Of a stretch of DNA of 64,000 bases, positions 7,096 to 64,000 are shown piece by piece; position 1 is the first letter of the stretch, and the number at the start of each line of letters is the position of its first letter. Source of the stretch: an uncultured Methylophilaceae bacterium (GTDB lineage Bacteria; Pseudomonadota; Gammaproteobacteria; Burkholderiales; Methylophilaceae); the NCBI GenBank assembly GCA_903834185.1, contig CAILHX010000010.1, positions 1 to 64,000 on the forward strand. The letters run 5' to 3'. The translations under genes were made by a program, and so were the position numbers. Below the pieces are notes generated by a model. It saw only the letters and a program-made list of their open reading frames with translations. It had not been told where the DNA came from and did no database searches.

Positions 7096-7252
7096 ATCAT
7101 CAGAAATGGCTTAAATAAAGGGTTTCAGAGGTATTGAAGGAAAACGCTGGAGCCTGAGATGGCAAGAGCTTGCCGCTTGTGGCAAATAAACCAGGTCATA
7201 AGCGGAACGTCGGTGTAGCGCCTATTTTGTGAGTCCTGAGAAATTCATCGAC

Positions 7253-9007: not shown

Positions 9008-9148
9008 TTATACTCTATGAAAAGTAAGCCCAAGCCTTGAGGGATACGTTATATTTATAGTACTTAATATTTACTGCAGTATTATTTATTCTATTCTTCT
9101 ATTCAGTGCAATTTTTCACTGCATTATGTTCACACACCTGTATGCTAC

Positions 9149-9838: not shown

Positions 9839-9863
9839 TTGTTTTCAATCCTGATCCAAGTTC

Positions 9864-9886
9864 GAGCTGGGCATTCAGCCCAGCTC
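9864..9886. terminator. Hairpin between convergent flgA and the SMP-30-like gene
   Basis: A 9-bp perfect stem (GAGCTGGGC / GCCCAGCTC) with a 5-base loop sits midway between the two convergent stop codons. The plus-strand side is followed by ATTATTCT rather than a clean T run, so it may act as a bidirectional terminator of moderate strength. Confidence 0.55.
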
Positions 9887-9895
9887 ATTATTCTG

Positions 9896-10744
9896 CTAAT
9901 GGCTGATCGGCAGCCAATTCAAGGTACCTGCCTTCATATCCGGCACCAAAATGAATTTGCCATCAGCCGATATGTTGATGTCTGCTGCTGACTGATAGCC
10001 ATCTTTGACCAACTTAACAGTACCGTCCGCTTTCACCGAAAATACTCGCCCGTTTTTCCAGTCGCTTACCCAAATCACATTCTTGTGATCGCGTGCTACG
10101 CCATCACCGCCGCCAAAACCTTCGGCTATCGCCTCCATCTTGCCTGTAGCAACCTTAATGCGGTATAAAATTCCTGACACGAAATCAACCATCAGGATAT
10201 GTTCCTTACCATCAGCCAGCACCCCATTAGGTGCAAGCACGCGTGGGTCGTCACCATTGACCAGGGTAGTCACCTTGCCTTTTGCATCAACCTGATAAAC
10301 GGCGCCACCCTTGCCTTGCAGGTCGCCGCTATCAGATACGTATAGCAAACCGTCATCACCGAATGCCAAGTCGTTCAGGAATTGTGGCTTGACCGGGAAA
10401 GCATCCGCGGCAGCAAAAACACTCCATTTGCCATTTTTTGCAATCTTCAGGATGCGTGTTTTGTCTGCAACGTAAAGCACTCCCTTGGCATAAGCCAAGC
10501 CTTTTGGATCATCCATGCCGGTGGCAAACGGTTTGACTTTGCCACCTTCGATGATGGCAATGCCCCCGTCTCCATCCTTGCCAAACTCACCTATTTCCGA
10601 AACGTAAATATGTCCATCAACCGCCAGTACCGATTCCGGCATACGCAGACCCGTGACCACTTTATCTGCACCATAGGCATTCGGCAGGCACGCTGCAGCC
10701 AGCATGGCGATGATAGAAAGCTTTATTGAAATATTGCGCGTCAA
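9896..10744 (-). CDS. Exported SMP-30/NHL-like beta-propeller protein
   Basis: The 282-residue protein begins with a Sec signal (ISIKLSIIAMLAAACLPNAYG) and then shows repeated propeller-blade motifs such as DDPKGLAYAKGVLYVADKTR, LNDLAFGDDGLLYVSDSGDL, APNGVLADGKEHILMVDFVS and NVIWVSDWKNGRVFSVKADG. This pattern fits the SMP-30/gluconolactonase and NHL superfamily, so a sugar lactonase or a non-catalytic binding propeller are both possible; substrate and catalysis cannot be told from sequence. The start codon is TTG at 10744, supported by a strong TAAGGAG ribosome site 7 bases upstream. The only nearby ATG would cut off the signal-peptide n-region. It is the last of four minus-strand genes for exported proteins. 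Confidence 0.75.
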   Translation of the reverse strand: MTRNISIKLSIIAMLAAACLPNAYGADKVVTGLRMPESVLAVDGHIYVSEIGEFGKDGDGGIAIIEGGKVKPFATGMDDPKGLAYAKGVLYVADKTRILKIAKNGKWSVFAAADAFPVKPQFLNDLAFGDDGLLYVSDSGDLQGKGGAVYQVDAKGKVTTLVNGDDPRVLAPNGVLADGKEHILMVDFVSGILYRIKVATGKMEAIAEGFGGGDGVARDHKNVIWVSDWKNGRVFSVKADGTVKLVKDGYQSAADINISADGKFILVPDMKAGTLNWLPISH

Positions 10745-44735: not shown

Positions 44736-46664
44736 TTACGCCACCACGGCGAAAAACCTCTCCACCTCGATCAATGCCTTGGTGCGTTTGAATGGCGGCA
44801 GACTCTGCCAGACGCGTTTACCGTATGATTTGGTCAGCATGCGCGGATCGCAGATCATCAGCACACCCCTATCGGTTTCATCACGTATCAGGCGCCCAGC
44901 CCCTTGTTTAAGTGTGATGGTGGCATAGGGCAGCTGATACTCCATGAATGCGTTCTTGCCCTCGGCGTTCAGCTTATCTATGCGTGCGGAGAGTACCGGG
45001 TCATCCGGCGGCGCAAATGGCAACTTGTCGATAATGACCACGGACAATGCTTCGCCTTTGACGTCCACGCCTTCCCAGAAGCTCTGGCTGCCCACCAGCA
45101 CCGCATTACCCAGTTGACGGAAACGCTCCAGCAACTCGGAACGAGTGGCATCGCCTTGTATCAGCAGCGGATACACCAGCCCATCACGATCGAATGCGTT
45201 TTGCAGCCAGCCGTGGATCTCGCGCATGGCACGCAAGCTGGTGCACAACATAAATGTCCTGCCCCCTGCCGCCTTGATCACAGGTAGCGCGGCTTCTGCC
45301 ACCGCCAGAATATAATCGGGATGATTCGGGTCGGGCAAGCCCTGGGGGGCATATAACAGTGCTTGCGCATCATAATCGAAGGGGCTTTCCCAGCGTGCGG
45401 TTCTGGATTCCAGCAGGCCCATCTGGTTAAGATAATGGCTAAAATCACTCTTCACCGCCAAGGTGGCGGAAGTGAATATCCAGGCACGCGGCTGCGCTGT
45501 AATTTGCTTATTGAATATCTCTGCGACTGATAACGGCGTAGCGTGCAACACTACGGATTGGGTAAATACTTCCACCCAGCGCACCAGATTGACGTCCTCT
45601 CCTGCCAGCCATTTATTCAGTTGCAAATGCAAGGACGTCGCCCGCTGCCAGCAGTTCTCCAGCCACGGGCCGCGCTCGGCCTGCGTTTGCAATAGCTTAC
45701 CCAATTCCAGCAATTTTTCGCCTACATTGCTTAGCGCGCTATCAAAATCTTTCAGCTGCAGCGCGCGCTGTACCGGCATTCTGGCACCTTCCAGGCCGAA
45801 CACCAGGCGAAAATCGCGCACTGCTTTTTCCAGCGCAGCAGTCAACGCAGGCAGATCCACGCAGTCCTTGGCATCGGTAAGATATTCGCCATGCGCATCG
45901 CGCGCCAGCTCCATCAGAAAGCTGGTGGAAATATCTTCGCCAAAAAACAATCCGGCAGTCTCTGGCAACTGATGGGCTTCGTCGAATATCACAGCATTAG
46001 AGGCAGGGAGTAATTCTGCGACACCTTCGTCGCGCAACATCACGTCGGCAAAGAAGAGATGGTGATTCACTACCACTACCTCTGCTGCCAGCGCCCGCTT
46101 ACGTGCTTCCATCACAAAGCACTCCTTATAGTCCGGGCATTCCTGTCCCAGGCAATTATCGCGGGTGGATGTCACGGCCTGCCATACCATTGAATTTTCA
46201 GGCACGGTGGAAAGATCGTTCTTATCCCCGGTTTGACTGGTTTCGGCAAACCGTTTGATCAGGTGCACATATTGCGCATCTTCGCGGCTCATGAAGCGAC
46301 CTTCATTCACCGCACGCTTCATGTGGTAATGACATACATAATTGGCACGCCCCTTGAGAATAGCCGTGGTCACCGGCGCTTTCAGCGCATCGCGTATGGC
46401 AGGCAGGTCACGATTGAATAATTGGTCTTGCAGGGTTTTGGTACCGGTGGATATGATGACCTTGCCGCCCGACAGCAGCGCCGGAACCAGATACGCAAAA
46501 GTCTTGCCGGTGCCGGTGCCGGCTTCGGTCACCAGCGTTGCATTGTCGGTGATCGCCTGCTGGATAGCCTGCGCCATCTCCACTTGCTGCTGGCGCTGAC
46601 GATAGCCTGGAATGGCCTCAGCCAACGGGCCATCGGCACTAAAAATCCGTTCAAGATCAGGCAT
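44736..46664 (-). CDS. YoaA/DinG-family iron-sulfur DNA helicase
   Basis: The 642-residue protein is an XPD-like superfamily 2 helicase of the YoaA/DinG group. Walker A is EAGTGTGKT (about 47-55) and the DEAH box is VIFDEAHQLP (about 228-231). Four Cys suited to a 4Fe-4S cluster lie at 111, 171, 176 and 182 (NYVCHYH; NCLGQECPDYKECF). Motif VI reads KQGAGRLIRDETDRGVLMIC. Length and order match E. coli YoaA (about 636). It should unwind DNA 5'-3' in repair or replication-fork rescue. The start is the ATG at 46664, overlapping the Anbu stop as TGATG; readings from 46775 add 37 unsupported residues. Confidence 0.9.
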   Translation of the reverse strand: MPDLERIFSADGPLAEAIPGYRQRQQQVEMAQAIQQAITDNATLVTEAGTGTGKTFAYLVPALLSGGKVIISTGTKTLQDQLFNRDLPAIRDALKAPVTTAILKGRANYVCHYHMKRAVNEGRFMSREDAQYVHLIKRFAETSQTGDKNDLSTVPENSMVWQAVTSTRDNCLGQECPDYKECFVMEARKRALAAEVVVVNHHLFFADVMLRDEGVAELLPASNAVIFDEAHQLPETAGLFFGEDISTSFLMELARDAHGEYLTDAKDCVDLPALTAALEKAVRDFRLVFGLEGARMPVQRALQLKDFDSALSNVGEKLLELGKLLQTQAERGPWLENCWQRATSLHLQLNKWLAGEDVNLVRWVEVFTQSVVLHATPLSVAEIFNKQITAQPRAWIFTSATLAVKSDFSHYLNQMGLLESRTARWESPFDYDAQALLYAPQGLPDPNHPDYILAVAEAALPVIKAAGGRTFMLCTSLRAMREIHGWLQNAFDRDGLVYPLLIQGDATRSELLERFRQLGNAVLVGSQSFWEGVDVKGEALSVVIIDKLPFAPPDDPVLSARIDKLNAEGKNAFMEYQLPYATITLKQGAGRLIRDETDRGVLMICDPRMLTKSYGKRVWQSLPPFKRTKALIEVERFFAVVA

Positions 46665-47392
46665 CAACACCAGTGCGGATCTGGCAACTCCGAGAAAACG
46701 CGTTTCAAACCCTCTGACCAGCCTTTGCGTAATATGTTGAAATACGGGTCGGTATCGGTAATGCGGATCAAACAATCAGCGCTGAAGGTATTGTTGCGAT
46801 ACATAAACAGATCTATCGGCATGCCTACAGAAAGATTACTGCGTATGGTTGAATCAAACGATACCAGCGTGCATTTTGCCACTTCGTTGATATCGCTTTT
46901 GATGTTAATGACCCGATCCAGGATGGGTTTGCCGTATTTAGTCTCGCCGATCTGAAAATAAGGCGTCTCAGCCACCGCTTCAATAAAGTTACCCGCAGCA
47001 TAGATATTGAACATCCTGGGCTTTTCTCCCTTGATCTGACCGCCAAGCAAGATGGCCTGATTAAAATCCGTCTGATGTATGCGCAGGTGCTCGCCGTCCG
47101 CCTCGTGAACTGCACGCAACGCGTCACCCACAACGCGGGCGGCATCGAACATATTGGTAACACTATGCAGGTTGGGGGTCACGCCGTCTCTGATGCCGTT
47201 ATGCAGAAGGCTGACTACTGCCTGCGAGATGGCGAGATTGCCCGATGTGAGCACCACCAATACACGGTCATCCGGTTTGGAGAAAATATTCATCTTGGGG
47301 AAATTGGCTACATGGTCAACACCCGCATTGGTGCGGGAATCAGAGGCCATCACCAAGCCGGTTTCAAGCAACACGCCTACACAATAAGTCAT
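46664..47392 (-). CDS. Anbu, proteasome-type peptidase
   Basis: The 242-residue protein matches Anbu, the ancestral bacterial relative of proteasome beta subunits. It starts MTYCVGVLLETGLVMASDSR, so removal of Met exposes the nucleophile Thr2. Asp18 (MASDSRTNAG) and Lys33 (ANFPKMNIF) complete the N-terminal-nucleophile active site. Further conserved pieces are VLVVLTSGNLAISQAVVSLL and AILLGGQIKGEKPRMFNIYA. Anbu genes typically sit beside ATP-grasp, alpha-E and transglutaminase genes, as here, where these begin about 3 kb away on the other strand. It is divergent from ppc and is translationally linked to the helicase by a one-base overlap. Confidence 0.9.
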   Translation of the reverse strand: MTYCVGVLLETGLVMASDSRTNAGVDHVANFPKMNIFSKPDDRVLVVLTSGNLAISQAVVSLLHNGIRDGVTPNLHSVTNMFDAARVVGDALRAVHEADGEHLRIHQTDFNQAILLGGQIKGEKPRMFNIYAAGNFIEAVAETPYFQIGETKYGKPILDRVINIKSDINEVAKCTLVSFDSTIRSNLSVGMPIDLFMYRNNTFSADCLIRITDTDPYFNILRKGWSEGLKRVFSELPDPHWC

Positions 47393-50471: not shown

Positions 50472-53009
50472 ATGAAGTTGCATAGCACGCATACAAGGCC
50501 AGACTTATCCTACGGGCTTGGTGAGAGCGCCTACGACGAGATGCTTGACTCTAGTGGTCAAGTGCGTCCGCATTGGACTACCTTGATGCATGCTCTGGAA
50601 GAGCTTGGCAGCGCAGAATTGGAATCACGCCATCAGGAAGCGCACAAACTGTTGCGCGAGAATGGCGTTACTTACAATGTCTATGGCGACCCCGACGGCG
50701 TTAACCGGCCATGGCAGCTAGACCCTTTACCGCTGCTGATCTCAGGCGAAGAATGGCGCGAAATGGAGACTGGGCTATTACAGCGCGCCGAATTGCTCAA
50801 TCTGATCCTCGCCGATCTCTACGGTTCGCGCGAACTGATCAAAAAGAATCTGCTGCCGCTGGAACTGATATACAACCATGCCGGATTCCTTCGTGCGTGC
50901 GACCAGGTCAAGTTGCCGACCAGTCGCCAGTTGGTGTTTTATGCAGCAGATCTTGCGCGCGGCCCTGATCAGAAGATGTGGGTCATCAGCGATCGCACCC
51001 AGGCACCTTCAGGTGCAGGGTATGCGCTGGAAAACCGTATGGCGGTTTCTCGCGTACTGCCGCAGTTGTTCCGCGATTCGCAAGCATATCGCCTGGAGCG
51101 TTTCTTCCAGTCCATTCAGGCCGGCCTCAACACCATCGCTTCACCGCGCACAGAAGCACCGCGCATCGTGGTACTGACTCCAGGCCCTTTCAATGAGACC
51201 TTTTTTGAACATTCCTATCTTGCTTCATTTCTGGGTTATTCACTGGTACAGGGCAACGACCTTACTGTGCGTGATGGTTATGTCTGGCTCAAATCACTCA
51301 CCGGATTACAACGCATAGATGTCATTCTGCGCCGTGTAGACGATAACTATTGCGACCCTCTCGAATTGCTTGAGGATTCCTGCCTCGGCGTACCGGGGCT
51401 GCTGGAGGTCGCCCGGCGCGGCAATATCTCGATTGCAAATCCGCTCGGTAGCGGGGTGCTGGAAAATCCGGGGATCCAGCCTTTCCTGCCTGCGATTGCC
51501 AGACATTTTCTCGGGCAACCACTCAAGCTACCGACCGCAGCTACCTGGTGGTGCGGACAGCAGAAGGAATTGGATTATGTGCTGGCTAACCTGGATAACC
51601 TCGTCATCAAATCGATCTACCGACGCCCTGGCGACAGCTCGATATTCGGTTCCCAGTTAAGCAAGAATGAACTCGCAGAATGGCGCGCGCGCATACGGGC
51701 GAATCCGAAAATGTATATAGGGCAGGAGCACGTCACTTTCTCTACTGCACCTTCAGTCACTTCGCAGGGCCTGGATCCGCGCAAGATATTGCTGCGCTGT
51801 TTCGCTGTAGCGCGCCATAATGGCTACGAAATCATGCCGGGCGGTCTCACCCGCAGTGCACCGGAAAAAGGCGACATGCCGATCACCGGCCAGATGGGCA
51901 GTATCAGCAAAGACACCTGGATCATCGCGGCTGAGCCGCAGTATGCCACCGCTAATGCCAGCCAAGCGCAATCCGTATTATCCCGCAGCCATCACAGCAA
52001 TGCATTACCCAGCCGGGCGGCGGACAACATCTTCTGGGTGGGGCGCTACGCAGAGCGTGCCGAAGGAAGCGTCAGGCTGTTGCGTGCCACAGTAAAAAAA
52101 CTATATATCAACCCTGAGCCTGATAATTCGAATTATCAGGCTTGTATCCATAACCTGCTTAGAAGTATCACCAGCCTGACCGGAACTTGGCCGGGATTTT
52201 TCGCGGAAGATACAGACGCTTTATTAAGGCAACCGGAAACTGAACTGCTTTCTGTAACGCTGGACGAAGAGCGTGTGGGCAGCCTGGCTCATTCATTAAG
52301 GCGATTGGTAAAAGCTGGCTACGCTGCGCGGGATCTATGGTCTTCCGACACATGGCGGGTGATGGATGAACTGGAAAATAACCTGATGCAATCACAAGAG
52401 GATCATGATACTGCGCTGTGGCAACTTCAAGGCAACATGGACATGTTGATTACTACGCTATCAGCACTGAGTGGCCTGGTGATGGAAAGCATGACGCGTA
52501 ATGACGGCTGGCTGTTCCTTGATATCGGGCGCAGGCTGGAGCGCGGCCTGCAATTGATCACCATCATGCGCACTGCATTTTCCGTAAAGCATGAAGACCC
52601 TGTAGAAACGCAGTTGATCGAATCACTGCTCAACGCCAGCGACAACCTTATTTGCTACCGCCAGCAATATCGCAGTTATTTCGAGCTGTCTTCATTTCTG
52701 GAATTATTGCTGCTCGACGAAAACAATCCGCGCTCGCTCATTTATCAGATTATGCGCCTGCAGGAACACGTCGCAAAAATCCCCAGCGAGAATTCGGATC
52801 AGCGACTAAGTACCGCGCAACGACTGACTTTGGAAGCCGGCACCATGATCAGGCTGGTCAATCTTAATAATTTACTGGAAGTTTCCGAAGACGGTATGCG
52901 CGAACATCTGGATCAGCAATTGAGCAGGCTTTATTATCTGCTCAGCGCATTATCCGATGCCATCAGTACTGAGCATTTCCGTCATGGCAGTGCACCCCAG
53001 CCTTTGTAA
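50472..53009 (+). CDS. Circularly permuted ATP-grasp / alpha-E domain fusion (predicted amidoligase)
   Basis: The 845-residue protein joins two domains usually encoded by neighbouring genes. Residues about 1-490 match the circularly permuted ATP-grasp type 2 family (YDEMLDSSGQVRPHWTTLMH; RENGVTYNVYGDPDGVNRPW; VILRRVDDNYCDPLELLEDS; NLVIKSIYRRPGDSSIFG). Residues about 512-845 are an alpha-E domain (LPSRAADNIFWVGRYAERAE, the usual start of stand-alone alpha-E proteins). ATP-grasp enzymes of this class are predicted to form amide or peptide bonds through an acyl phosphate; alpha-E is a helical partner domain. Substrate unknown. A transglutaminase-like gene starts 12 bases downstream, suggesting an operon. 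Confidence 0.88.
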   Translation: MKLHSTHTRPDLSYGLGESAYDEMLDSSGQVRPHWTTLMHALEELGSAELESRHQEAHKLLRENGVTYNVYGDPDGVNRPWQLDPLPLLISGEEWREMETGLLQRAELLNLILADLYGSRELIKKNLLPLELIYNHAGFLRACDQVKLPTSRQLVFYAADLARGPDQKMWVISDRTQAPSGAGYALENRMAVSRVLPQLFRDSQAYRLERFFQSIQAGLNTIASPRTEAPRIVVLTPGPFNETFFEHSYLASFLGYSLVQGNDLTVRDGYVWLKSLTGLQRIDVILRRVDDNYCDPLELLEDSCLGVPGLLEVARRGNISIANPLGSGVLENPGIQPFLPAIARHFLGQPLKLPTAATWWCGQQKELDYVLANLDNLVIKSIYRRPGDSSIFGSQLSKNELAEWRARIRANPKMYIGQEHVTFSTAPSVTSQGLDPRKILLRCFAVARHNGYEIMPGGLTRSAPEKGDMPITGQMGSISKDTWIIAAEPQYATANASQAQSVLSRSHHSNALPSRAADNIFWVGRYAERAEGSVRLLRATVKKLYINPEPDNSNYQACIHNLLRSITSLTGTWPGFFAEDTDALLRQPETELLSVTLDEERVGSLAHSLRRLVKAGYAARDLWSSDTWRVMDELENNLMQSQEDHDTALWQLQGNMDMLITTLSALSGLVMESMTRNDGWLFLDIGRRLERGLQLITIMRTAFSVKHEDPVETQLIESLLNASDNLICYRQQYRSYFELSSFLELLLLDENNPRSLIYQIMRLQEHVAKIPSENSDQRLSTAQRLTLEAGTMIRLVNLNNLLEVSEDGMREHLDQQLSRLYYLLSALSDAISTEHFRHGSAPQPL

Positions 53010-53021
53010 AGAAAAAACCAC

Positions 53022-53903
53022 GTGCGATATCGAGTCACCCACACCACTACTTACGAATATACCGACCAGGTCGGGGCATCGTATAACGAAGCCTGCCTGT
53101 TACCACGCTCCTGCCCGCAACAAGCATTACTGGCAGCACGTCTGGAAATCTCGCCGGTGGAAACCGATTTCCGGGTAAGGGAGGATTTTTTCGGCAACCA
53201 AGTGGCTTATTTCTCGATTAACAAACCACACCACGAGTTCAGCGTCACCGCCATCAGCGAAGTACAGGTCTACCCTGCCCCCACGCAACTGAATTTCTCG
53301 CAGGGGATGGCCTGGGAAAACGTAAGGGAAATATTGGAAGAAAACATGAGCCCGCAGAATCTGGACGCTCGCCAGTACGTACTGGATTCACCGCTTATCA
53401 GTGCCAGCAATGAATTATCTTCCTATGCACGGGATTCCTTTTATCCGGGCAGGCCATTGCTGGAGGCCGTACACGATCTGATGCAGCGTATTTTTCACGA
53501 CTTCACATTCGATCCTGAATTCACCACTCTCGCTACTCCGTTGAGCGAAGTACTGGAACATCGGCGCGGGGTATGCCAGGATTTTGCTCATCTTGCCATC
53601 GGCTGCCTGCGTTCTCAAGGCCTGGCTGCACGTTACGTCAGCGGCTATATCGAGACCCTGCCGCCGCCAGGCGAAGAAAAAATGGTGGGAGCGGATGCCT
53701 CGCATGCCTGGTTCTCCGTATTCATTCCCGAACAGGGCTGGATGGATTTCGACCCTACCAACAATCAGGTTCCTAACGATCAGCATATCACCGTTGCCTG
53801 GGGACGCGACTACAGCGATGTCACGCCGCTCAAAGGCGTAATCTTTGGCGGTAAAGATCATGAATTGAGCGTATCCGTTGACGTACAACGGCTGGGCGAA
53901 TAA
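53022..53903 (+). CDS. Transglutaminase-like cysteine protease/amidase (complete triad)
   Basis: The 293-residue protein is a bacterial transglutaminase-fold enzyme (COG1305 type). It has an N-terminal beta domain (MRYRVTHTTTYEYTDQVGAS; EDFFGNQVAYFSI) followed by the catalytic core. Cys185 is in RRGVCQDFAHLAIG, His228 in DASHAWFSVFIPEQ and Asp244 in WMDFDPTNNQV, so the triad is intact. These enzymes act as peptidases or amide transferases; here the product of the ATP-grasp partner is the likely substrate. The start is GTG at 53022, 12 bases after the previous stop, with no strong ribosome site. No signal peptide, so cytoplasmic. Confidence 0.88.
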   Translation: MRYRVTHTTTYEYTDQVGASYNEACLLPRSCPQQALLAARLEISPVETDFRVREDFFGNQVAYFSINKPHHEFSVTAISEVQVYPAPTQLNFSQGMAWENVREILEENMSPQNLDARQYVLDSPLISASNELSSYARDSFYPGRPLLEAVHDLMQRIFHDFTFDPEFTTLATPLSEVLEHRRGVCQDFAHLAIGCLRSQGLAARYVSGYIETLPPPGEEKMVGADASHAWFSVFIPEQGWMDFDPTNNQVPNDQHITVAWGRDYSDVTPLKGVIFGGKDHELSVSVDVQRLGE

Positions 53904-54027
53904 CCCTACCTTCAGCAATTAATCCCTATTGTGTGCTTGTGCACAGACGCCGCAACCGAACCCGGTCATTGTTCCTGCGTTCTCATAAGTATTACCGAAA
54001 CTACATATTAAGAATGCGAGGTTTTAC

Positions 54028-54897
54028 ATGGTACGGCTGAAATTTTTTATTGAGCTTAATTACGAAATCGACTATGCCCCCGCCGATTTCATTTTCAACA
54101 TACATGCGGCACAAACACAGTCCCAATCGCTGGTCACGGAAAATCTCCAGGTCAATCAGCCTATCCCCACTTCTCTATACACAGATCCCGTAAGGGGTAA
54201 TCGTTACGTGCGTTTGCGTGCCAACCCGGGAAAACTCACTGTACGCTATGACGCGACTGTGGATATCGTGCACCATATTGCATCGCCCGATAGTGTGCAA
54301 GAAGTGCCGATCGCCGAGGTGCCATGGGAAGCGCTTCCTTACATATACCCCAGCCGTTACTGCCAGTCCGACCGGCTACAGCATCTGGCGAATAGCGAAT
54401 TCGGCGCCCTGCAACCCGGGTATTGGCGGGTAAGAGCAATTCAGGACTGGGTGAAACGTCAAACCAGATTTGTCTCCGGCAGTTCGAATGCGACGACATC
54501 AGCGGTCGACACTCTGGTGGAGCAAGTCGGTGTATGCCGTGATTTCGCGCACCTGATGATTGCCCTGTGCCGTGCGCTCAATATACCTGCTCGTTTCGCT
54601 ACGGGGATCGACTACGGTGCGGACCCGATTTTCGGCCCAACCGACTTCCATGCCTACGTGGAAACTTTCCTCAGCGGTCGCTGGTATTTGTTCGATGCCA
54701 CCGGGATGGCTTTGCCCACAGGATTGATTCGGCTTGGCGTTGGGCGTGATGCCGCAGATGTTTCTTTTGCCACGATATTCGGATCTGTCAGATCCGAACC
54801 TCCGGTCATCGGTATTGAAGCTATTGAAGATAGCGAAAGCGGAATTGTATTACCGTATGCCTGCGTAGACGCAATCTCCACTCACGACGGAAATTAA
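54028..54897 (+). CDS. Second transglutaminase-like enzyme (complete triad)
   Basis: The 289-residue protein is a different branch of the transglutaminase fold. It starts MVRLKFFIELNYEIDYAPAD and ends with the catalytic core: Cys170 (VEQVGVCRDFAHLMIALCRA), His208 (GPTDFHAYVETFL) and Asp223 (WYLFDATGMALP). The N-terminal domain is beta-rich and shares little with the 53022 protein. No signal peptide is visible. It lies 124 bases after the previous gene; the gap shows no feature. A short hairpin (GCCGT-ATAA-ACGGC) lies just after the stop codon but lacks a T run. Confidence 0.85.
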   Translation: MVRLKFFIELNYEIDYAPADFIFNIHAAQTQSQSLVTENLQVNQPIPTSLYTDPVRGNRYVRLRANPGKLTVRYDATVDIVHHIASPDSVQEVPIAEVPWEALPYIYPSRYCQSDRLQHLANSEFGALQPGYWRVRAIQDWVKRQTRFVSGSSNATTSAVDTLVEQVGVCRDFAHLMIALCRALNIPARFATGIDYGADPIFGPTDFHAYVETFLSGRWYLFDATGMALPTGLIRLGVGRDAADVSFATIFGSVRSEPPVIGIEAIEDSESGIVLPYACVDAISTHDGN

Positions 54898-55135: not shown

Positions 55136-55170
55136 TCTATTAAATCAGGTACATTTTAAGGAGCACTATG

Positions 55171-55563
55171 ATGATGAAAACCATGTCAAGCAGATTGCAA
55201 ACCAAACCGAGTCAGCCCCCTCTCGCCTCAATGACGCTGGCCCAGATGAGACATTCCCTGCTGGAAGTTCCGGATTGGGAAATCGACAATCACGGCACGG
55301 TACTCAAGCGTACGTTCCAAGGCAATAACTTTACCGGCGCACTGATATTGGCGAACAAAATCGGCGTTCTGTGCGACCATGAAGGGCACTGTCCGGAAAT
55401 GACCGTCGGCCCAAATTACTGCAAAGTCACGTTTCAATCACAGGAAACAGGCGGATTGCAGGAAAACGACTTTATTATGGCATTTAAAATAAATCAGCTT
55501 CTGGACAAACTACGCAAGGCAACCAAGACTTACAATCTGGATCAGTTCAGCCTTATTGCATAA
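55171..55563 (+). CDS. PCD/DCoH-family protein with altered active-site residues
   Basis: The protein matches pterin-4a-carbinolamine dehydratase (PhhB/DCoH), which recycles the pterin cofactor of aromatic amino-acid hydroxylases. The fold signature is present (PDWEIDNHGTVLKRTF; DHEGHCPEMTVGPNY; ETGGLQENDFIMAFKINQLL). In the enzyme the motif is HHP with a third His before the GGL/AGL loop. Here they are His-Cys-Pro and Gln (positions 74-76 and 92, counting from the first of three ATGs). Two of three catalytic His are therefore changed, and activity is doubtful. Three ATGs stand in tandem (55168, 55171, 55174). AAGGAG at 55158-55163 is best spaced (7 bases) for the second. An N-terminal tail of about 20 residues precedes the fold. 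Confidence 0.8.
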   Translation: MMKTMSSRLQTKPSQPPLASMTLAQMRHSLLEVPDWEIDNHGTVLKRTFQGNNFTGALILANKIGVLCDHEGHCPEMTVGPNYCKVTFQSQETGGLQENDFIMAFKINQLLDKLRKATKTYNLDQFSLIA

Positions 55564-55714: not shown

Positions 55715-56572
55715 ATGGATTTCCTACAGATTCTAATTCTCGCCATCGTACAAGGCGTGGCCGAACTTCTGCCTGTCTCCAGCTCTGCCCATGTAATCGT
55801 CGCTGAAAAACTGATGGGGATTGACCCGACCACCCCCCAAATGACACTGCTACTGGTAATGCTGCATACCGGTACCATGTTCGCCGTCATCATCTATTTC
55901 TGGAAATCATGGCGTACGACCTATTTCAGCTCTATGCCCGCCTTCCGCAATAATGCGCTGCATATCATCATTGCAACGCTGGTCACCGGCATCGTTGGCT
56001 TGGTAATGCTGGCATTGATCAAACATCTATTTGCTGGTGATGCTCCCGATTTCGAAATCGAACATCTGTTCGGCAATGCTAGGCTGATGGCAGCTTCGCT
56101 TGCTACCGTTGGCGTGCTGATTATTGTTTCGTCGCGTTTCCCGGAAAACGGCAACAAGCTCGGCAATGCTCGATTATCTATACCTATCGCAGCATGGATA
56201 GGGGCGGTACAAGGCTTGTGTTTACCGTTTCGCGGCTTTTCCCGTTCCGGAGCCACAATCTCAACTGGCTTGATCTTAGGCGTGGTTCGCCGGCAATCAG
56301 AGGAGTTCAGCTTCGCGCTCGCTGTAGTGCTAACTCCGGCAGTCATCGCCAAGGAAGCCTATCGCCTCTACAAGTCGCATGTTATTTCTGCTGCGGGACA
56401 ATCACCCGAATTGCTGCATTTGGTTACTCCCAGCTTATTCGGCATGATGCTGAGTTTTTTGGCGGGGCTGGTTGCGCTAAGATGGCTCTCGCGCTGGCTG
56501 GAACAAGGTCGCTGGCATTACTTCGGCGCCTATTGTTTGCTGGCCTCTCTGGTAGTGCTTTGGGTAGGCTGA
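55715..56572 (+). CDS. uppP: Undecaprenyl-diphosphatase UppP/BacA
   Basis: UppP dephosphorylates undecaprenyl diphosphate at the inner membrane, recycling the lipid carrier for peptidoglycan synthesis. The 285-residue protein has about eight membrane helices. It shows the (E/Q)xxxE motif in VQGVAELLPVSSSAHVIV and the second motif as FRGFSRSGATISTG (residues 172-180), where most homologues read PGxSRSG. The start is an ATG at 55715 (MDFLQILILAIVQGVAELLP). Convergent with the CYTH-CHAD gene. Confidence 0.93.
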   Translation: MDFLQILILAIVQGVAELLPVSSSAHVIVAEKLMGIDPTTPQMTLLLVMLHTGTMFAVIIYFWKSWRTTYFSSMPAFRNNALHIIIATLVTGIVGLVMLALIKHLFAGDAPDFEIEHLFGNARLMAASLATVGVLIIVSSRFPENGNKLGNARLSIPIAAWIGAVQGLCLPFRGFSRSGATISTGLILGVVRRQSEEFSFALAVVLTPAVIAKEAYRLYKSHVISAAGQSPELLHLVTPSLFGMMLSFLAGLVALRWLSRWLEQGRWHYFGAYCLLASLVVLWVG

Positions 56573-56593
56573 CGATTACTCTTCAGGCAGTCA

Positions 56594-58108
56594 TTAATTC
56601 CAAAAAGGCTTTTGTGCGCTAAATGCCTGCCAAACAGCATCCATATGACTTAGTTGGTGCGTGACATGTTGGTCGTTCCATCCGCAAAGGATATGCAGCG
56701 CTTCATCCAATGCTTGATCAGGGGAATCCCCTGCCAAGCGATGCGCGAGTACTTGGGTGACGTTGAGGTCATTTAGCTTGCCGAGCACCTCCTGCAACTC
56801 AGTCAGTTTTTGCAGAAAGGAAGCTGTGCTGCGAGAAGGGTAGAAGCTGGCAAATAACTCCGTGGCGTAACGCAGCTTTTTGCACAGGATACGCATGTGG
56901 TGCCGTTGTCCGGCATCAAATTCGCGTAATAACTTCCCCTGCTTGTGTAGTTGCTTATAACGCTTTTGCAGGATGTCTTGGGCGATGACGATGACAGGGA
57001 CCGCGTGTGAATCCAATTGCATGTTTTCCAGCAACAAGCCCATTTTGAGCAGCAAGCGTTGATACCGTTGCGACCTGATTGCCGAGCGTGCCGAGAGATA
57101 GGCCACGCACTGTGCCGTCATCGCCCGGCAGCGTAGCGTCTGCAGGCCGGGGTGATGCTCGAACTGCTGCATCACCGTCGGTAAGGTTTGGGTAAGAAAT
57201 ACATCGGTATCACGTGCAGGGCTCAGCTTATCCGAAATCCACATCAGCTCGGCCTTCAATTCGGCAGCCACGTCCACCACTGAGTCAAAGACCATCAAGG
57301 CAGAACGGAGGCGGCGCAAAGCGACCCGCATCTGGTGCACACCTTCCACATCTTCACCATGCAGTACCATGTCCTGATTACCCTGTAACCGGGCAAGGCA
57401 TTCCCAACCGATTTGGCGCAAGGCTTCGAGCGCGCTCAAGTTTTTTGCAAGCGGCTTCACTCTCGCTTTTACCACTGCCGGCAAACCAGGACGATAGTAG
57501 GCATAGCCAAGTTGCGCTTTGCTGGTATTTTCAATATGCAACGGGATGTCGGTTTGCAATTGCAATGCCAGCTCAAACAGCCAGCTGGCATGACCTGACT
57601 TGAGTTCCAGTTCGACTTCATTTATCAGTCGAGGGGGGGTGATCATTCCATTAACCCGCAACACTCCCCTATCCAGCGCCATTTCAATCAGGCTGCCATC
57701 TGCCATCGTCAATTGCCATTCGGTACGTTGCACTTCCGTGATGAAAATAGGCTGTAACGCAGCGCGTAACTCGTCGCTGGAAAAGATTGGTATCAGCGCC
57801 GGATCGTTGATCTTGCTGAAGTCAGGATGTCCGGCAGCAATGATGTCTTCCCATTCCATACGCTGATGCAAGCCGGCAAGCGAGCTACCTGCCGCTTTGA
57901 CCGCCTGGAACCAGCTGCCTGACATGCGCCTTACTCGCAAGGAAACATGGGCATCCAGCAATTGAAGATCGGGGGTGTCGTAATAAATACTGGTGAGCTT
58001 GCGTGTCACCGGTTTACCCGTGGTGGCCGCAACGATGACAGGGTGACGTCGCAAACGGGCAGCGTGTGCAGGATTGATGCGCAACTTCAGTTCAACTTCG
58101 TTAGGCAT
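56594..58108 (-). CDS. CYTH-CHAD domain protein (inorganic triphosphatase type)
   Basis: The 504-residue protein has an N-terminal CYTH domain (residues about 1-205). The metal/phosphate-binding ExExK motif is at the start (NEVELKLRI), with later YYDTPDLQLL, SLRVRR and NEVELELKSG. A CHAD domain (about 225-490) carries the conserved His/Arg/Lys helices (GVHQMRVALRRLRSALMVFD; HHMRILCKKLRYATELFA). E. coli YgiF, of the same architecture, hydrolyses triphosphate; CHAD binds polyphosphate. The substrate here is not proven. It follows the DUF2126 gene on the same strand, 143 bases apart. Confidence 0.9.
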   Translation of the reverse strand: MPNEVELKLRINPAHAARLRRHPVIVAATTGKPVTRKLTSIYYDTPDLQLLDAHVSLRVRRMSGSWFQAVKAAGSSLAGLHQRMEWEDIIAAGHPDFSKINDPALIPIFSSDELRAALQPIFITEVQRTEWQLTMADGSLIEMALDRGVLRVNGMITPPRLINEVELELKSGHASWLFELALQLQTDIPLHIENTSKAQLGYAYYRPGLPAVVKARVKPLAKNLSALEALRQIGWECLARLQGNQDMVLHGEDVEGVHQMRVALRRLRSALMVFDSVVDVAAELKAELMWISDKLSPARDTDVFLTQTLPTVMQQFEHHPGLQTLRCRAMTAQCVAYLSARSAIRSQRYQRLLLKMGLLLENMQLDSHAVPVIVIAQDILQKRYKQLHKQGKLLREFDAGQRHHMRILCKKLRYATELFASFYPSRSTASFLQKLTELQEVLGKLNDLNVTQVLAHRLAGDSPDQALDEALHILCGWNDQHVTHQLSHMDAVWQAFSAQKPFWN

Positions 58109-58251: not shown

Positions 58252-61200
58252 TTATTGCTTTGCGTTCCATCTTAAATCCAGGGTAAACGGATAATCCTTG
58301 TTGATTTCTTCTACCGGTATTTCTATTGGTTTTTTGTTTGCAGTGTGCCCGTGATTCCAAAAGCGGCTGATGCGGCGGCCTTCCGCTTCATTGGCGTTGA
58401 CGGGGAGCGTGTCGTAGTTGCGCCCTCCTGGGTGGCTGACGTGATAGGTACATCCACCGACAGCGCGATTATTCCAGCTATCTATAATGTCGAATACCAG
58501 CGGGGCCTGTACGCCTATGGTGGGGTGCAAGGCGGAAGGCGGATTCCATGCGCGAAAACGAACCCCGGCGACTAATTCACCTTGCGTGCCGGTGGCATGT
58601 AACGGCACACGGCGGCCATTGCATGTGACGACATAACGGTCTCCGGTAGCTCCACTAAGCCTGACCTGAAGTCGTTCGACCGAGGAATCCACATAGCGTG
58701 CAGTCCCGCTACTGGTAATTTCTTCACCCATTACATGCCATGGCTCGATCGCAGTGTGCAGATCCAATTGCATATCGCCGACCTGCACAGTCCCACAACG
58801 CGGGAACCTGAATTCGAGAAAAGGGGCGAACCATTCCGGCTTGAAGTCGTAACCTGCGGCTTTAAGATCGAGCGCAACATCCTGAATATCGCTGGCGACA
58901 AAATGCGGCAGCATGAAGCGGTCATGCAGATGTGTACCCCAGCGTACAAGCGGTTTCTGATAAGGTTGTTTCCAGAACCATGCCACCAGGGTTCGTAGCA
59001 GCAACATCTGCATCAGGCTCATCTCTGCGTGGGGCGGCATCTCGAAGGCACGTAGTTCGAGCAAGCCCAAACGCCCGGCATCGGTACCAGGGGCATAAAG
59101 CTTGTCTATGCAGAATTCGCTACGGTGGGTGTTACCTGTCATATCCACCAGCAGGTTACGCAATAACCTGTCCACCAGCCAAGGTGCCGGCACTTCACCC
59201 GCAGGCATTTGCTGGAAGGCGATCTCAAGCTCATACAAGCTATCGTTACGCGCTTCGTCCACGCGTGGTGCCTGACTGGTCGGCCCGATGAACAGACCGG
59301 AAAACAAATAGGATAATGCCGGGTGATGCTGCCAGTAAGTGATCAGGCTACGTAATAAATCCGGACGACGCAGGATGGGACTATCCGCGGGGGTGATGCC
59401 GCCGAGCGTGACGTGATTGCCGCCACCGGTACCTGTATGACGACCATCCAGCATGAATTTTTCGGTGCCCAGCCGAGTCAGCCGCGCCTGTTCATAAAGT
59501 GTAGTGGTGTTATGCACCAACTCTTTCCAGCTTTTGGCGGGATGAATATTGACCTCGATCACGCCGGGATCAGGCGTTACTGGCAATCGGGTGAGGCGAA
59601 GATCATGCGGCGGCTGGTAACCCTCTATCAGTACCGGCATGTTGAGTTTTTTACTGGTGGCCTCGACTGAAGCAATGATATCGAGATAGTGCTCCAGGGC
59701 ATTGGTCGGCGGAATGAATATATACAGGCGACCATGACGCGCCTCTACACATAGCGCTGTGTGGGGCGTCCATTTTGGGTTGACCTCTTTTTCCGTTGCT
59801 GCGGGATCTATTGTCTTGGCTTTGTCTTTGCTATAGCGACGACTGACTTCTGCATCCATATCCTGCAATGGCTCTACCGCCTCGTACAGACTGCGTTCCG
59901 GCTCGTGGTCGCGATCCTTGTAGTCGACCCAGGGCAGGCTATTCAACGGTAGCCGCAAACCCATGGCGGAATCGCCTGGGATCAGGAACATCTCCCCGCG
60001 ACGGAATTCCCACTGGCTGCTGCTCCATGTCTTGCGCAGATGGCTCCAGTGTACAGGCAACACATAACCCACTTGTGCGCCTAGCCCAGCAGTCAACACT
60101 CTGGTCAAACGCTTGCGTTCAAGGTCATCTTTCAAATCAATTTTTAATGGATCAATATTTTCCGGCAATACACCTTCCTGCAGCAGATAATGCAGAGGGT
60201 CCTCATACCCGGCGCGTATATAGCTCCCCTTCAAGCCCAGATGCCGGGCCAGCTCCTTGATATATGTCTCTGCGTGTTTGACTTTGAAGCCGTAATTCTT
60301 GGTCAGATTCGCCAATAACTCAGGATCTTTCCACACAGGTTTTCCGTCCTTACGCCAGAAACAGGCCAACTGCCAGCGCGGCAATTGCTCGCCCGGATAC
60401 CACTTACCCTGACCAAAATAAAGCAGGCCGCCTGGGGCGAAAGCATCGCGCAAGCGGCAGATCAATTCTCCCGCAAGTTTGCGCTTTTGCTCGCCATCGG
60501 CATCGGTATTCCATTCCGGCGCATCCATCTTGACTATGGACACGAAGGTGGGTTCACCGCCCATGGTCAGGCGCACATCCCCTTTTTTGAGTTCGCCATC
60601 TACCTTGTCCCCCAGTTTTTCTATCTGGCTCCACTGTTCTCGGGTGTAGGGTTTGGTAACACGCGGATCTTCAAGGATGCGCTTGACGCTATTACTGAAT
60701 TCAAATGTGATTTTGGCCTGACCGGTAAACCCACCCGTCACTGGCGCGGCACTGACAAAATCCGCAGTGCACGCCAGCGGGATATGGCCTTCTCCGGCAA
60801 ACAAACCGGAGGTGGGATCCAGGCCTATCCAGCCGGCACCTGGAATGAACACCTCGGCCCACGCATGAAGGTCGGTAAAGTCTTTTTCCGTACCGGAAGG
60901 ACCATCCAAAGCCTTCACATCAGCAGTCAGCTGTACCAGATATCCGGATACAAAACGTGCTGCCAAACCAAGATGACGCAATACCTGTACCAGCAACCAG
61001 CCTGAATCACGGCACGAACCCAATCTTTTCTGCAGCGTTTCTTCACAGGTCTGCACGCCGGGCTCCATACGGATACTGTAGTTCACGGCCTGATTGATAC
61101 GCTGGTTGATCGCTACCAGAAAGTCAACAATAGCGGTTTTGTCGCGTGGGATATCGGCAAGAAACTCCTGTAGCAATACCCCCTTCTCTTTAATTTCCAG

Positions 61201-61551
61201 ATATGGCAACAGCTCTTTTTGCAGTTGTTCAGGATAGTGGAAAGGGTAATACTCGGCATATTCTTCAAGGAAAAAATCGAACGGGTTGATTACCGTCATT
61301 TCGGCTATCAGATCGACTTCTACGGAGAGCTCGCTGGATTTTTCCGGAAACACCACCCGTGCCAGATAATTTCCGAAAGGGTCTTGCTGCCAGTTGATGA
61401 AGTGCTTTTCCGGCTTGATCTTGAGCGAGTAAGCACTGACTGGCGTACGTGAATGTGCCGCCGGACGCAGCCGGAATACATGCGGTGACAATTGTACCGG
61501 TTGGTCGTAAACGTAGCGGGTTTTGTGATGAAGCGCGACCTTGATGGTCAT
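58252..61551 (-). CDS. Transglutaminase-DUF2126 fusion (predicted GS-type amidoligase)
   Basis: From the start at 61551 (MTIKVALHHKTRYVYDQPVQ) the protein is 1099 residues; a longer reading from 61671 overlaps the previous gene and lacks family support. Residues about 1-290 are a transglutaminase-like module with a full triad: Cys180 (RLGSCRDSGWLL), His229 (DLHAWAEVFI), Asp245 (GLDPTSGLF). The rest is DUF2126, listed as a putative amidoligase related to glutamine synthetase. Signatures are TMGGEPTFVSI (about 330-340), GVIEVNIHPAKSW (about 663-675) and DGRHTGTGGGNHVTLGG (about 702-718). A ligase and a transglutaminase on one chain suggest building and trimming or transfer of one amide-linked product. 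One base separates its start from the previous stop. Confidence 0.88.
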   Translation of the reverse strand: MTIKVALHHKTRYVYDQPVQLSPHVFRLRPAAHSRTPVSAYSLKIKPEKHFINWQQDPFGNYLARVVFPEKSSELSVEVDLIAEMTVINPFDFFLEEYAEYYPFHYPEQLQKELLPYLEIKEKGVLLQEFLADIPRDKTAIVDFLVAINQRINQAVNYSIRMEPGVQTCEETLQKRLGSCRDSGWLLVQVLRHLGLAARFVSGYLVQLTADVKALDGPSGTEKDFTDLHAWAEVFIPGAGWIGLDPTSGLFAGEGHIPLACTADFVSAAPVTGGFTGQAKITFEFSNSVKRILEDPRVTKPYTREQWSQIEKLGDKVDGELKKGDVRLTMGGEPTFVSIVKMDAPEWNTDADGEQKRKLAGELICRLRDAFAPGGLLYFGQGKWYPGEQLPRWQLACFWRKDGKPVWKDPELLANLTKNYGFKVKHAETYIKELARHLGLKGSYIRAGYEDPLHYLLQEGVLPENIDPLKIDLKDDLERKRLTRVLTAGLGAQVGYVLPVHWSHLRKTWSSSQWEFRRGEMFLIPGDSAMGLRLPLNSLPWVDYKDRDHEPERSLYEAVEPLQDMDAEVSRRYSKDKAKTIDPAATEKEVNPKWTPHTALCVEARHGRLYIFIPPTNALEHYLDIIASVEATSKKLNMPVLIEGYQPPHDLRLTRLPVTPDPGVIEVNIHPAKSWKELVHNTTTLYEQARLTRLGTEKFMLDGRHTGTGGGNHVTLGGITPADSPILRRPDLLRSLITYWQHHPALSYLFSGLFIGPTSQAPRVDEARNDSLYELEIAFQQMPAGEVPAPWLVDRLLRNLLVDMTGNTHRSEFCIDKLYAPGTDAGRLGLLELRAFEMPPHAEMSLMQMLLLRTLVAWFWKQPYQKPLVRWGTHLHDRFMLPHFVASDIQDVALDLKAAGYDFKPEWFAPFLEFRFPRCGTVQVGDMQLDLHTAIEPWHVMGEEITSSGTARYVDSSVERLQVRLSGATGDRYVVTCNGRRVPLHATGTQGELVAGVRFRAWNPPSALHPTIGVQAPLVFDIIDSWNNRAVGGCTYHVSHPGGRNYDTLPVNANEAEGRRISRFWNHGHTANKKPIEIPVEEINKDYPFTLDLRWNAKQ

Positions 61552-61552
61552 G

Positions 61553-62815
61553 CTAACCTGTACTTTCAGCTTGCAGCAGCTTGAGATTTTCTTCCACCCC
61601 GGCAGCAGCAGTAAGCTCTGCCACATTCTGTTTGGTGAAGAAACCGTCAAAACCGCCGAAGCGCTGCACATACTCCACGATCAACGAGGAATGCTCGGAA
61701 GCACTTGAGAATATCTGCTTCAAACCTTCTTCTCTGGAACCGATCACATCCAGCAGAAAATCCTTGCCCTTGGCCTTGATCGCCTCTACCACGTAATCAA
61801 TATTGGCCAAGCCTTTGGTTTCACCGTCGGCTACGCTCAATGCTACATGATGCAGTCTGGGCCCATAGTTACGCACAAAACTTTCGGTGGGTGAAGGAAG
61901 TCCGATCAGATGATTCACGAAATAGGGATGGTTGGCTGCTGTGAACACTTTGGCAGGACTAAAACTTTCATCGGCATAATGCACGCTTTTGGTCACATTG
62001 GTTGACGAGTTCTGATTTTCGATATTGTAAGAACCCCAATAGTAGTAACTTGAAAGCGTCAGGTATTCGAGTATCGCCACTTCGCGATTCTGGCTGTAAA
62101 CGCGCGTTGCCAGATGGTCGATGGGCAGGATCAGCTTGTCCAGACTCAACTCTTTCTGCATCTCCTTGGCTTCCAGATAACCGCGGTTGACGTCGTTATG
62201 TATCGTGCTATTACCCAGGGCATAGACACGTATATCTTCCGGCGGACGTTCCCAGTAGCCGACGATATTATGGGTATAGGGCGAAGGCTTGACGATGGCC
62301 ATATTGCCCGGCAATTCCAATTTGCGGATCTGATCCTGATTAAAGAATCGTACCTCGCGTGATTTCTGCATTTCCATTACTTCATGCAGATTGCTAACGC
62401 GGAAGATCTCCCCCATGTAGCGCGAATTCGGTTTATGCGCACCTATGGGATAAACCTCGTTCAGACTGCGGAAGATCCCGTGGGTATTGGGATCGCGGAC
62501 TTCACGTACCAGCAGGTCAGGTGAATTCATGTCGATACGTAACACATGGGTCCAGTGCGACTCGGATTCCAGCGTGACCAGATAATGATATGGCGTCATC
62601 AACGCCAGTTCGCTGACATAGGCGACCGAACATCCCGGCTCTACTGTAATCATCAATGCATCCACCTGATGGATGATATCGGTCAAGCCGATACGGTCAC
62701 GATCTTCCAGCAGTTTGACCAAAAATTCGTCAAACCAGGGAGAGTTGGTTTTGTCACCCTGTTTAGGGTGAGCCAGAGAGTTTGCTGAAGGGCTGCCTGC
62801 TTTTAAGGAGTTCAT
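61553..62815 (-). CDS. HPPD-like VOC-fold protein in the amidoligase cluster
   Basis: I do not know a named family for this 420-residue protein (start ATG at 62815; a reading from 62923 adds 36 residues overlapping the previous gene). Its C-terminal half resembles 4-hydroxyphenylpyruvate dioxygenase. IDHLATRV gives His234, RLHHVALSV gives His322/323, and LIVEYVQRFGGFDGFFTK gives Glu381, matching the His-His-Glu iron triad and the QR..GF end of HPPD. The N-terminal half has only weak similarity to anything I recognise (HWTHVLRIDMNSPDLLVREV). It may be a non-heme iron oxygenase or a related VOC enzyme. It lies between a Cys-less transglutaminase-like gene (20 bases upstream) and the DUF2126 fusion (1 base downstream), so it is part of the operon. 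Confidence 0.6.
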   Translation of the reverse strand: MNSLKAGSPSANSLAHPKQGDKTNSPWFDEFLVKLLEDRDRIGLTDIIHQVDALMITVEPGCSVAYVSELALMTPYHYLVTLESESHWTHVLRIDMNSPDLLVREVRDPNTHGIFRSLNEVYPIGAHKPNSRYMGEIFRVSNLHEVMEMQKSREVRFFNQDQIRKLELPGNMAIVKPSPYTHNIVGYWERPPEDIRVYALGNSTIHNDVNRGYLEAKEMQKELSLDKLILPIDHLATRVYSQNREVAILEYLTLSSYYYWGSYNIENQNSSTNVTKSVHYADESFSPAKVFTAANHPYFVNHLIGLPSPTESFVRNYGPRLHHVALSVADGETKGLANIDYVVEAIKAKGKDFLLDVIGSREEGLKQIFSSASEHSSLIVEYVQRFGGFDGFFTKQNVAELTAAAGVEENLKLLQAESTG

Positions 62816-62835: not shown

Positions 62836-63636
62836 TTACTGCTGTGATTGTTCCATGTTGTGTGCCAAAAGGGTACTGGTCATGGATTGTTTTGCATGTG
62901 GCGTGAGTCCCTTGAACGGACATGCATCATTATCGTCCAAGCCTGTCGCCAGCCTAACATGTATCCCGTTGGCACGCTGCCGGTTGGAAACATCAAAACT
63001 GTGCCAGCCGCTACCTTCCAGCCACGCATCGGCCCAGGCATGACTTTCCATCTTGCCGCCTTGCGGGGTGTACAGATAGCCGCTGACATATCGTCCGGGG
63101 ATTCCCAGACTGCGGCAACAGGCGATGAAGATATGCGCGTGATCCTGATAAGAGCCCTTACCGGCAGCCAATGCCTCGGAAGCACTGGAATGACGACTGG
63201 CAGACGACCTGCGACAGGCGACAGAATCAGCAATGCCGTGCATCAGCTCAGTGAGAACGACCTCATCCAGTTTGCCGCTTGCAGGTACAAATAATCGCGC
63301 AAAATTGCGTATGCGAATGTCAGGCTTGGTGAGTGGTGTATCACGCAGATAGACTTCTATCGGAAACAAGTCGTCATTGGGCGGCAGGTCAATATCCGTT
63401 TCAACCTCACCGTGAGCGGTGATGACGACCTCACTATGCGGCTCGTCCAGCACCAGCGTATGGGTGGTATTACCAAAAGCATCCGCGTACGACTGCAATT
63501 TACCGTTGACCCGGATATCCCAGTTCTTCACCCGTTGCCCGAAACCATCCTGTGGTGTCAGATGAAGCTGCTGTATGGTGTATGTCATCGGCATATCGAA
63601 TTCGTAGCATGCCCTGTGTTCAATATTCAAATTCAT
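62836..63636 (-). CDS. Transglutaminase-like protein with Cys replaced by Tyr
   Basis: The 266-residue protein has the layout of bacterial transglutaminase-like proteins (COG1305 type): N-terminal beta domain (MNLNIEHRACYEFDMPMTYT; QLHLTPQDGFGQRVKNWDI), then the core. The expected GVCQDHAH motif reads KGSYQDHAHIFIACCRSLG, so position 163 is Tyr (TAT) in place of the nucleophile Cys. His199 (MESHAWADAWLEGSG) and Asp215 (HSFDVSNRQ) remain. It is therefore either an inactive partner protein or uses other chemistry; Cys173/174 lie close by. It follows an alpha-E gene after 39 bases and precedes the HPPD-like gene by 20 bases. Confidence 0.85.
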   Translation of the reverse strand: MNLNIEHRACYEFDMPMTYTIQQLHLTPQDGFGQRVKNWDIRVNGKLQSYADAFGNTTHTLVLDEPHSEVVITAHGEVETDIDLPPNDDLFPIEVYLRDTPLTKPDIRIRNFARLFVPASGKLDEVVLTELMHGIADSVACRRSSASRHSSASEALAAGKGSYQDHAHIFIACCRSLGIPGRYVSGYLYTPQGGKMESHAWADAWLEGSGWHSFDVSNRQRANGIHVRLATGLDDNDACPFKGLTPHAKQSMTSTLLAHNMEQSQQ

Positions 63637-63675: not shown

Positions 63676-64000
63676 TCATCGAGGGGCGTTAAGGAAAGTC
63701 TTTTGAATTTCCACACCTAGGTTGTTATTAAGAATGATGAAGTCCTGTAAAAACTCATGCAGTCCGTTATCGGCAATCACATTCATGCGCCCAAAATGCA
63801 GTTTTGCGTGCAGCTCGCCCGCCTGACGCATGCACTCCATACCGCGGTCAGCACAGATTTTTTCCAGGATAGGCGATATCTCGTCCAGACAGGTATGCAG
63901 GGATCTCGGCATGTCATCGCGCAACACCAGCAACTCTGCGACTTTTCTGGCATCTATGGTGTCGCGGAACACTTTTTGGTAAGCCTCCATGGCAGACACC
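63676..64000 (-). CDS. Alpha-E domain protein (C-terminal part, cut by window edge)
   Basis: The reading frame runs off the right edge. The 107 visible residues, with MEAYQKVFRDTIDARKVAEL and LVLRDDMPRSLHTCLDEISP, match the C-terminal helices of the stand-alone alpha-E domain family (COG2307). Alpha-E proteins are normally encoded next to a circularly permuted ATP-grasp gene, which would be expected to the right of the window. It is the first visible gene of a second minus-strand amidoligase/transglutaminase operon. Confidence 0.8.
   Translation of the reverse strand, partial: VSAMEAYQKVFRDTIDARKVAELLVLRDDMPRSLHTCLDEISPILEKICADRGMECMRQAGELHAKLHFGRMNVIADNGLHEFLQDFIILNNNLGVEIQKTFLNAPR

Follow-up and report, generated by a model that had tools for sequence, protein, structure and literature searches.

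A predicted HPPD-type oxygenase as a frequent, optional component of Anbu/Alpha-E/ATP-grasp gene clusters

The window, i.e. the whole stretch of 64,000 nucleotides analysed here (contig CAILHX010000010.1 of an uncultured Methylophilaceae bacterium), contained near its end a gene for a 420-aa protein with the predicted fold of 4-hydroxyphenylpyruvate dioxygenase (HPPD) and hydroxymandelate synthase (HMS), lying between a transglutaminase-like gene and a transglutaminase-DUF2126 fusion. The features of this locus and of related genes were as follows.

46664–47392, minus strand: Anbu, a bacterial proteasome homologue (PDB Anbu entries, best E = 9.9e-88)
50472–53009, plus strand: second cluster, 845-aa fusion of CP-ATP-grasp and Alpha-E
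53022–53903, plus strand: second cluster, transglutaminase-like protein
54028–54897, plus strand: second cluster, transglutaminase-like protein (Bact_transglu_N_2)
58252–61551, minus strand: transglutaminase-DUF2126 (putative amidoligase) fusion, operon downstream (PF09899, 1357 bits)
61553–62815, minus strand: HPPD/HMS-fold protein, 420 aa (open reading frame, homologues, profile alignment, model, fold search)
61673–61675, minus strand: Glu381 codon, predicted third iron ligand (profile alignment with HPPD)
61847–61849, minus strand: His323 codon, predicted second iron ligand (profile alignment with HPPD)
61850–61852, minus strand: His322 codon, also invariant
62114–62116, minus strand: His234 codon, predicted first iron ligand (invariant in 102 homologues, pairs with an HPPD ligand)
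62836–63636, minus strand: transglutaminase-like protein, 266 aa, operon upstream (PF08379 and PF01841)
63676–64000, minus strand: Alpha-E, cut at the window end (whole gene 63676–64632 of the contig)
64632–66110 of the contig, beyond the window: CP-ATP-grasp, same strand as Alpha-E and nearly touching it

In the reading of open frames, the HPPD-fold gene started with the ATG at 62815; an alternative in-frame ATG was present at 62923, yet conservation began at about residue 13. The gene was separated by 20 bases from the upstream transglutaminase-like gene (ending at 62836) and by 1 base from the ATG (61551) of the downstream fusion, as an earlier note on this DNA had reported for an HPPD-like gene. 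The system was wider than first noted, comprising CP-ATP-grasp, Alpha-E and Anbu besides the transglutaminase-like and DUF2126 genes. The Anbu gene, which no Pfam model recognised at E ≤ 0.001, lay 14 kb away from the HPPD-fold gene; its distance to the second cluster was 3 kb. The second amidoligase cluster (50472–54897, plus strand) was in the opposite orientation to the first, both being inside one 25-kb region. Directly 3′ of the second cluster was a gene for pterin-4a-carbinolamine dehydratase (55168–55563, plus strand; PF01329, E = 2e-19), which was absent from the gene clusters recurring in at least five HPPD-fold loci. Between both clusters (55715–58108) were an undecaprenyl-diphosphatase-type gene (BacA family, plus strand) and a gene for a CYTH-CHAD protein (minus strand).

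Searches with the HPPD-fold protein gave nothing significant in Pfam, NCBIfam, PHROGs, PADLOC or PDB sequences. Its sole Pfam result was Glyoxalase_4 (E = 0.043, below significance), PF07063 (HglS/DUF1338) in Pfam was not matched, and no NCBIfam model, TIGR01263 included (curated cut-off 277 bits), was matched at E up to 1. Homologues from other families of the same class were 63–86% identical to it, indicating a real, strongly conserved protein. Among 274 genomes of the class, 23 (source genome counted) had a match, and 293 stretches of the GTDB species set encoded a relative; plasmid and phage records contained no homologue. The homologues were assembled into an alignment of 102 sequences with 37–88% identity. 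Distant alphaproteobacterial copies were 37–43% identical to the window protein, and on this distant branch (L115, L116 and L118–L123) the triad was unchanged. Genome G043 had two full-length copies (L009 and L024) on separate contigs, each near an Alpha-E gene. In G156 the gene was broken into two abutting open frames (L021/L025), and in G206 it was fragmentary (L022/L027), one piece containing an internal stop; these broken copies are either decaying genes or assembly errors.

A tree built quickly from 46 sequences placed the window copy among interleaved Methylophilaceae, Gallionellaceae and Methylococcales. The Methylomonas operon was much nearer to betaproteobacterial operons than were most other gammaproteobacterial copies, its proteins being ~85% (ATP-grasp), ~80% (DUF2126) and ~88% (HPPD-fold) identical to those of the window, a similarity of sequences consistent with joint transfer of the whole operon.

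The earlier note had proposed a search against VOC and HPPD profiles. Ordinary family models being silent, the 102-sequence alignment was compared by hhalign with an alignment of 12 HPPDs of the same class found with TIGR01263 (11 over the cut-off and 1 just below it). A match with E = 2.3e-4 and a score of 38.8 was obtained over residues 229–409; 60 column-shuffled HPPD alignments scored at most 25.6 and a reversed alignment 15.9, indicating that the match to the HPPD profile exceeded chance. The alignment put His234, His323 and Glu381 on the three HPPD iron ligands. Of the neighbouring histidines 322 and 323, offered together as a ligand in the earlier note, His323 was thus aligned with the HPPD ligand and His322 was not. 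Further pairs with HPPD were Gln367 and Phe369 (QIF), Gln384-Arg385 (E.VQR), Gly391 and Phe393 (GF), Asn397 (N..L) and Asn295. His234, His322, His323 and Glu381 were invariant in all 102 sequences, as were Asn295 and Gln367 at positions of the keto-acid pocket. A putative second metal site in the N-terminal part (His87, His90 and Glu105) was dropped, these residues being lost in the distant group.

Differences from HPPD were found elsewhere in the pocket. The invariant residues Pro309 (paired by the sequence-profile alignment alone) and His322 were the counterparts of two HPPD pocket glutamines, Gln293 and Gln307 in Arabidopsis numbering, which are usually assigned to the substrate ring. Thus Gln293, Gln307 and Gln379 of the Arabidopsis pocket corresponded to Pro309, His322 and Gln367, and one of three was kept. 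Since two pocket glutamines were replaced, the substrate is probably not 4-hydroxyphenylpyruvate, and the reaction may differ from that of HPPD. These changes argue for unchanged keto-acid chemistry on another side chain.

To obtain a predicted structure, as the earlier note had also suggested, an AlphaFold model was built from the 102-homologue alignment, with pLDDT 85.2 and pTM 0.87; an earlier model from 21 close homologues (pLDDT 54) was discarded. All of the 50 best structural matches in the PDB were HPPD or HMS (best E = 5e-17). TM-scores were ~0.6 when normalised to the query and reached 0.72 when normalised to the target; identity was ~15%. The ten best matches aligned over 404–428 columns, i.e. 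over both domains and the whole protein. The C-terminal His-His-Glu set and QR..GF motif that had first drawn attention to the gene were aligned with HPPD, but the homology was not confined to the C-terminal half. In the model the predicted ligands were on predicted strands 229–239, 321–328 and 379–385, positions that fit the VOC arrangement, and the predicted full-length HPPD fold makes a wide separation of the triad residues unlikely.

The protein shared with HPPD (TIGR01263) the full-length two-domain fold, the iron triad, the QIF, E.IQR, GF and N..L positions, and two keto-acid pocket residues, Asn and Gln. It differed in having no TIGR01263 or Pfam match, in its low identity, in the Pro and His at two pocket glutamines, and in the location of its gene in a ligase operon. 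A designation as HPPD proper was not supported, TIGR01263 giving no match and one of three pocket glutamines being retained. HMS (e.g. 2R5V) had the same triad and gave the top target TM-score among the matches; its gene context was different, and the likeness was judged on fold and triad. Together these data make it likely that the protein is an active HPPD-type oxygenase.

Two other readings of the active site were considered. The protein might be a VOC metalloenzyme of the system with other chemistry (a lyase, an isomerase or a hydroxyacid synthase of the HglS kind), the metal perhaps not being iron. The VOC superfamily is chemically diverse (cf. PMC1431709), and the invariant His322 beside the ligand His323 was lacking in most HPPDs compared. 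The 2-oxoadipate dioxygenase HglS (DUF1338), too, is a VOC-type iron oxygenase with an alpha-keto acid as its substrate (PMC7286885), but the absence of a Pfam DUF1338 match, and of HglS from the 50 best fold matches, all of them HPPD or HMS, makes other chemistry unlikely. The protein might also be a VOC protein that has lost catalysis and serves the system structurally or by binding, catalysis being here a prediction from sequence and model; the ligands and keto-acid pocket residues were, however, invariant throughout the 102 sequences at identities as low as 37%, a conservation that an inactive site would not lead one to expect, and we give this reading very little credence.

Linkage was examined in a sample of 80 named loci, Alpha-E being counted alone or fused to ATP-grasp. 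Alpha-E was within 6 kb of the HPPD-fold gene in 61 of the 80 loci; in 41 it preceded the gene on the same strand by no more than 600 bases. DUF2126 followed downstream within 400 bases in 19. The gene was therefore present in many homologous clusters, and not absent from them, as regards the conservation in other genomes that the earlier note had asked about. Gene order around it was highly variable between loci, indicating that its association with the system was maintained across many rearrangements. In L099, two Anbu-like genes (7186–8022 and 9129–9947) with the same N-terminal sequence flanked a transglutaminase-like gene, this trio being directly upstream of the HPPD-fold gene. The flanks examined of 19/80 loci contained no system gene, several of these flanks being short. 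In Mariprofundus, Acidithiobacillus, Acidihalobacter and some Methylococcales the gene was unlinked across 10 kb on each side, and the alphaproteobacterial copy that was examined, L116, had no system gene alongside.

Genomes holding the HPPD-fold gene were also compared with non-holders. Alpha-E was encoded in 27/27 holders vs 7/27 non-holders (p = 5.5e-9; 19/19 with each holder family counted once, p = 2.5e-7) and DUF2126 in 21/27 vs 4/27 (p = 6e-6), p-values that are only a guide because the non-holders were taken as listed, mostly from one class, and species are non-independent points. Anbu was found in 25/27 holders (none in G184 and G370) vs 6/27 non-holders, one by a partial match. Alpha-E was encoded elsewhere in the genomes of the unlinked zetaproteobacterial holders and of G607 and G716, the holders on the distant alphaproteobacterial branch. 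The HPPD-fold gene thus follows the Alpha-E core more than DUF2126. Alpha-E in seven non-holders, which lack the HPPD-fold gene, indicated an optional partner, without which the system can occur.

Could the gene lie near ligase genes by chance and encode an HPPD/HPDL-type housekeeping enzyme, for tyrosine breakdown or supply of quinone head groups? Fold and triad match HPPD and HMS, and canonical HPPD was not found in the source genome or in five other holders searched. Human HPDL, which is likened here by its published function and not by sequence, forms 4-hydroxymandelate by an HPPD/HMS-like mechanism as an intermediate towards CoQ10 (PMC13111500). However, if the enzyme served quinone supply, chorismate lyase should tend to be missing from holders, and this prediction failed: PF04345 was present in 20/27 holders vs 16/27 non-holders (p = 0.39), with no inverse relation, and the source genome encodes chorismate lyase, which makes 4-hydroxybenzoate. 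With the Alpha-E linkage and co-occurrence, the two replaced pocket glutamines and the missing TIGR01263 match also against it, a housekeeping enzyme is quite improbable. It is very likely, instead, that the HPPD-fold protein is a functional part of the Anbu/Alpha-E/ATP-grasp system. That it is at once this and an active HPPD-type oxygenase also seems probable, if less so than either part taken separately. The earlier proposal that the amidoligase operon includes an HPPD-type oxygenase was thus well supported by the computed fold, conserved triad, operon linkage and genome co-occurrence. The protein defines a new family within a known fold; its gene is a new, frequent and optional component of a known operon type.

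The published Anbu operon consists of genes for ATP-grasp, Alpha-E, transglutaminase-like and Anbu proteins (PMC5666114, PMC6376114), and all four components were present in the 64-kb window and the bases just past it. The published version lacks the oxygenase; here there were also the DUF2126 fusion and the second ATP-grasp/Alpha-E cluster, and Anbu was well away from the HPPD-fold gene. Word searches of PMC5666114 and PMC6376114 found no dioxygenase or glyoxalase. Full-text literature searches found no paper linking HPPD-type enzymes to the Anbu/Alpha-E system; the gene may be mentioned by Iyer et al. 2009, reportedly the founding paper on amidoligase-type operons.

HMS, by supplying a building block of peptide antibiotics, sets a precedent for the role proposed here; ATP-grasp ligases, for their part, activate carboxylic acids. 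In HPPD and HMS the alpha-keto acid is bound on iron, CO2 is lost with O2 and the bound acid is oxygenated (PMC13111500). We infer that in the HPPD-fold protein, too, the metal is iron, the reaction HPPD-like and the substrate a small keto acid, and that the product feeds the ligases. On this reading the protein would be an Fe(II)-dependent oxygenase of alpha-keto acids with the two-domain HPPD/HMS fold, and would belong to a CP-ATP-grasp/Alpha-E/transglutaminase-like/DUF2126/Anbu system. With Fe(II) bound through His234, His323 and Glu381, it would take up a small alpha-keto acid and O2, decarboxylate the acid and then hydroxylate the remainder, giving a shortened hydroxy- or aryl-carboxylic acid. 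As this product would be a carboxylic acid, of the kind activated by ATP-grasp enzymes, the simplest join may be that the ligases attach an unusual acid: the ATP-grasp and DUF2126 ligases would activate it and couple it into a peptide, conjugate or tag that would be the target of Anbu and the transglutaminase-like proteins. The ATP-grasp protein of an Anbu operon was reported to liberate phosphate from ATP (PMC6376114).

Alternatively, the oxygenase of the system could act on a finished peptide, conjugate or protein-bound residue, and not on a free keto acid. Operon membership and co-occurrence would suit this equally, and the altered side-chain pocket (Pro309 and His322) leaves the substrate open. 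Against it, Asn295 and Gln367 of the keto-acid pocket were kept throughout, and the pocket of HPPD and HMS is closed, a small keto acid serving as substrate and co-substrate at once. We regard action on a finished product as doubtful. Oxidation of an aromatic group on the product, as the earlier note had suggested, is likewise not favoured, the HPPD architecture suiting a small alpha-keto acid over a peptide and two pocket glutamines being replaced. The preferred reading, that the protein makes a building block and does not modify the finished product, is a serious but tentative candidate. In its fullest form, in which a non-proteinogenic hydroxy or aryl acid is made by the oxygenase, attached to proteins or peptides by the CP-ATP-grasp and DUF2126 ligases, and removed by Anbu and the transglutaminase-like proteins, this reading is speculative.

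Direct tests of Anbu gave no peptidase activity and no stable partners, and the published hypotheses for the Anbu/Alpha-E/ATP-grasp system were untested (PMC6376114). The recognisable predicted chemistry of the HPPD-fold protein, with Alpha-E in every sampled holder, offers a handle on this unexplained system: an expected metal (Fe(II)), a co-substrate (O2), a class of substrates (alpha-keto acids) and a triad for mutagenesis. The unannotated family, with ~290 stretches in the GTDB species set, enlarges the HPPD/HMS group, and a peptide-bond-making system with a proteasome relative, Anbu, gains a testable piece of chemistry. If the proposed role is true, this would be a new kind of O2-dependent conjugation or peptide-metabolite system, whose carriers would include methanotrophs, methylotrophs, and iron and sulfur oxidisers.
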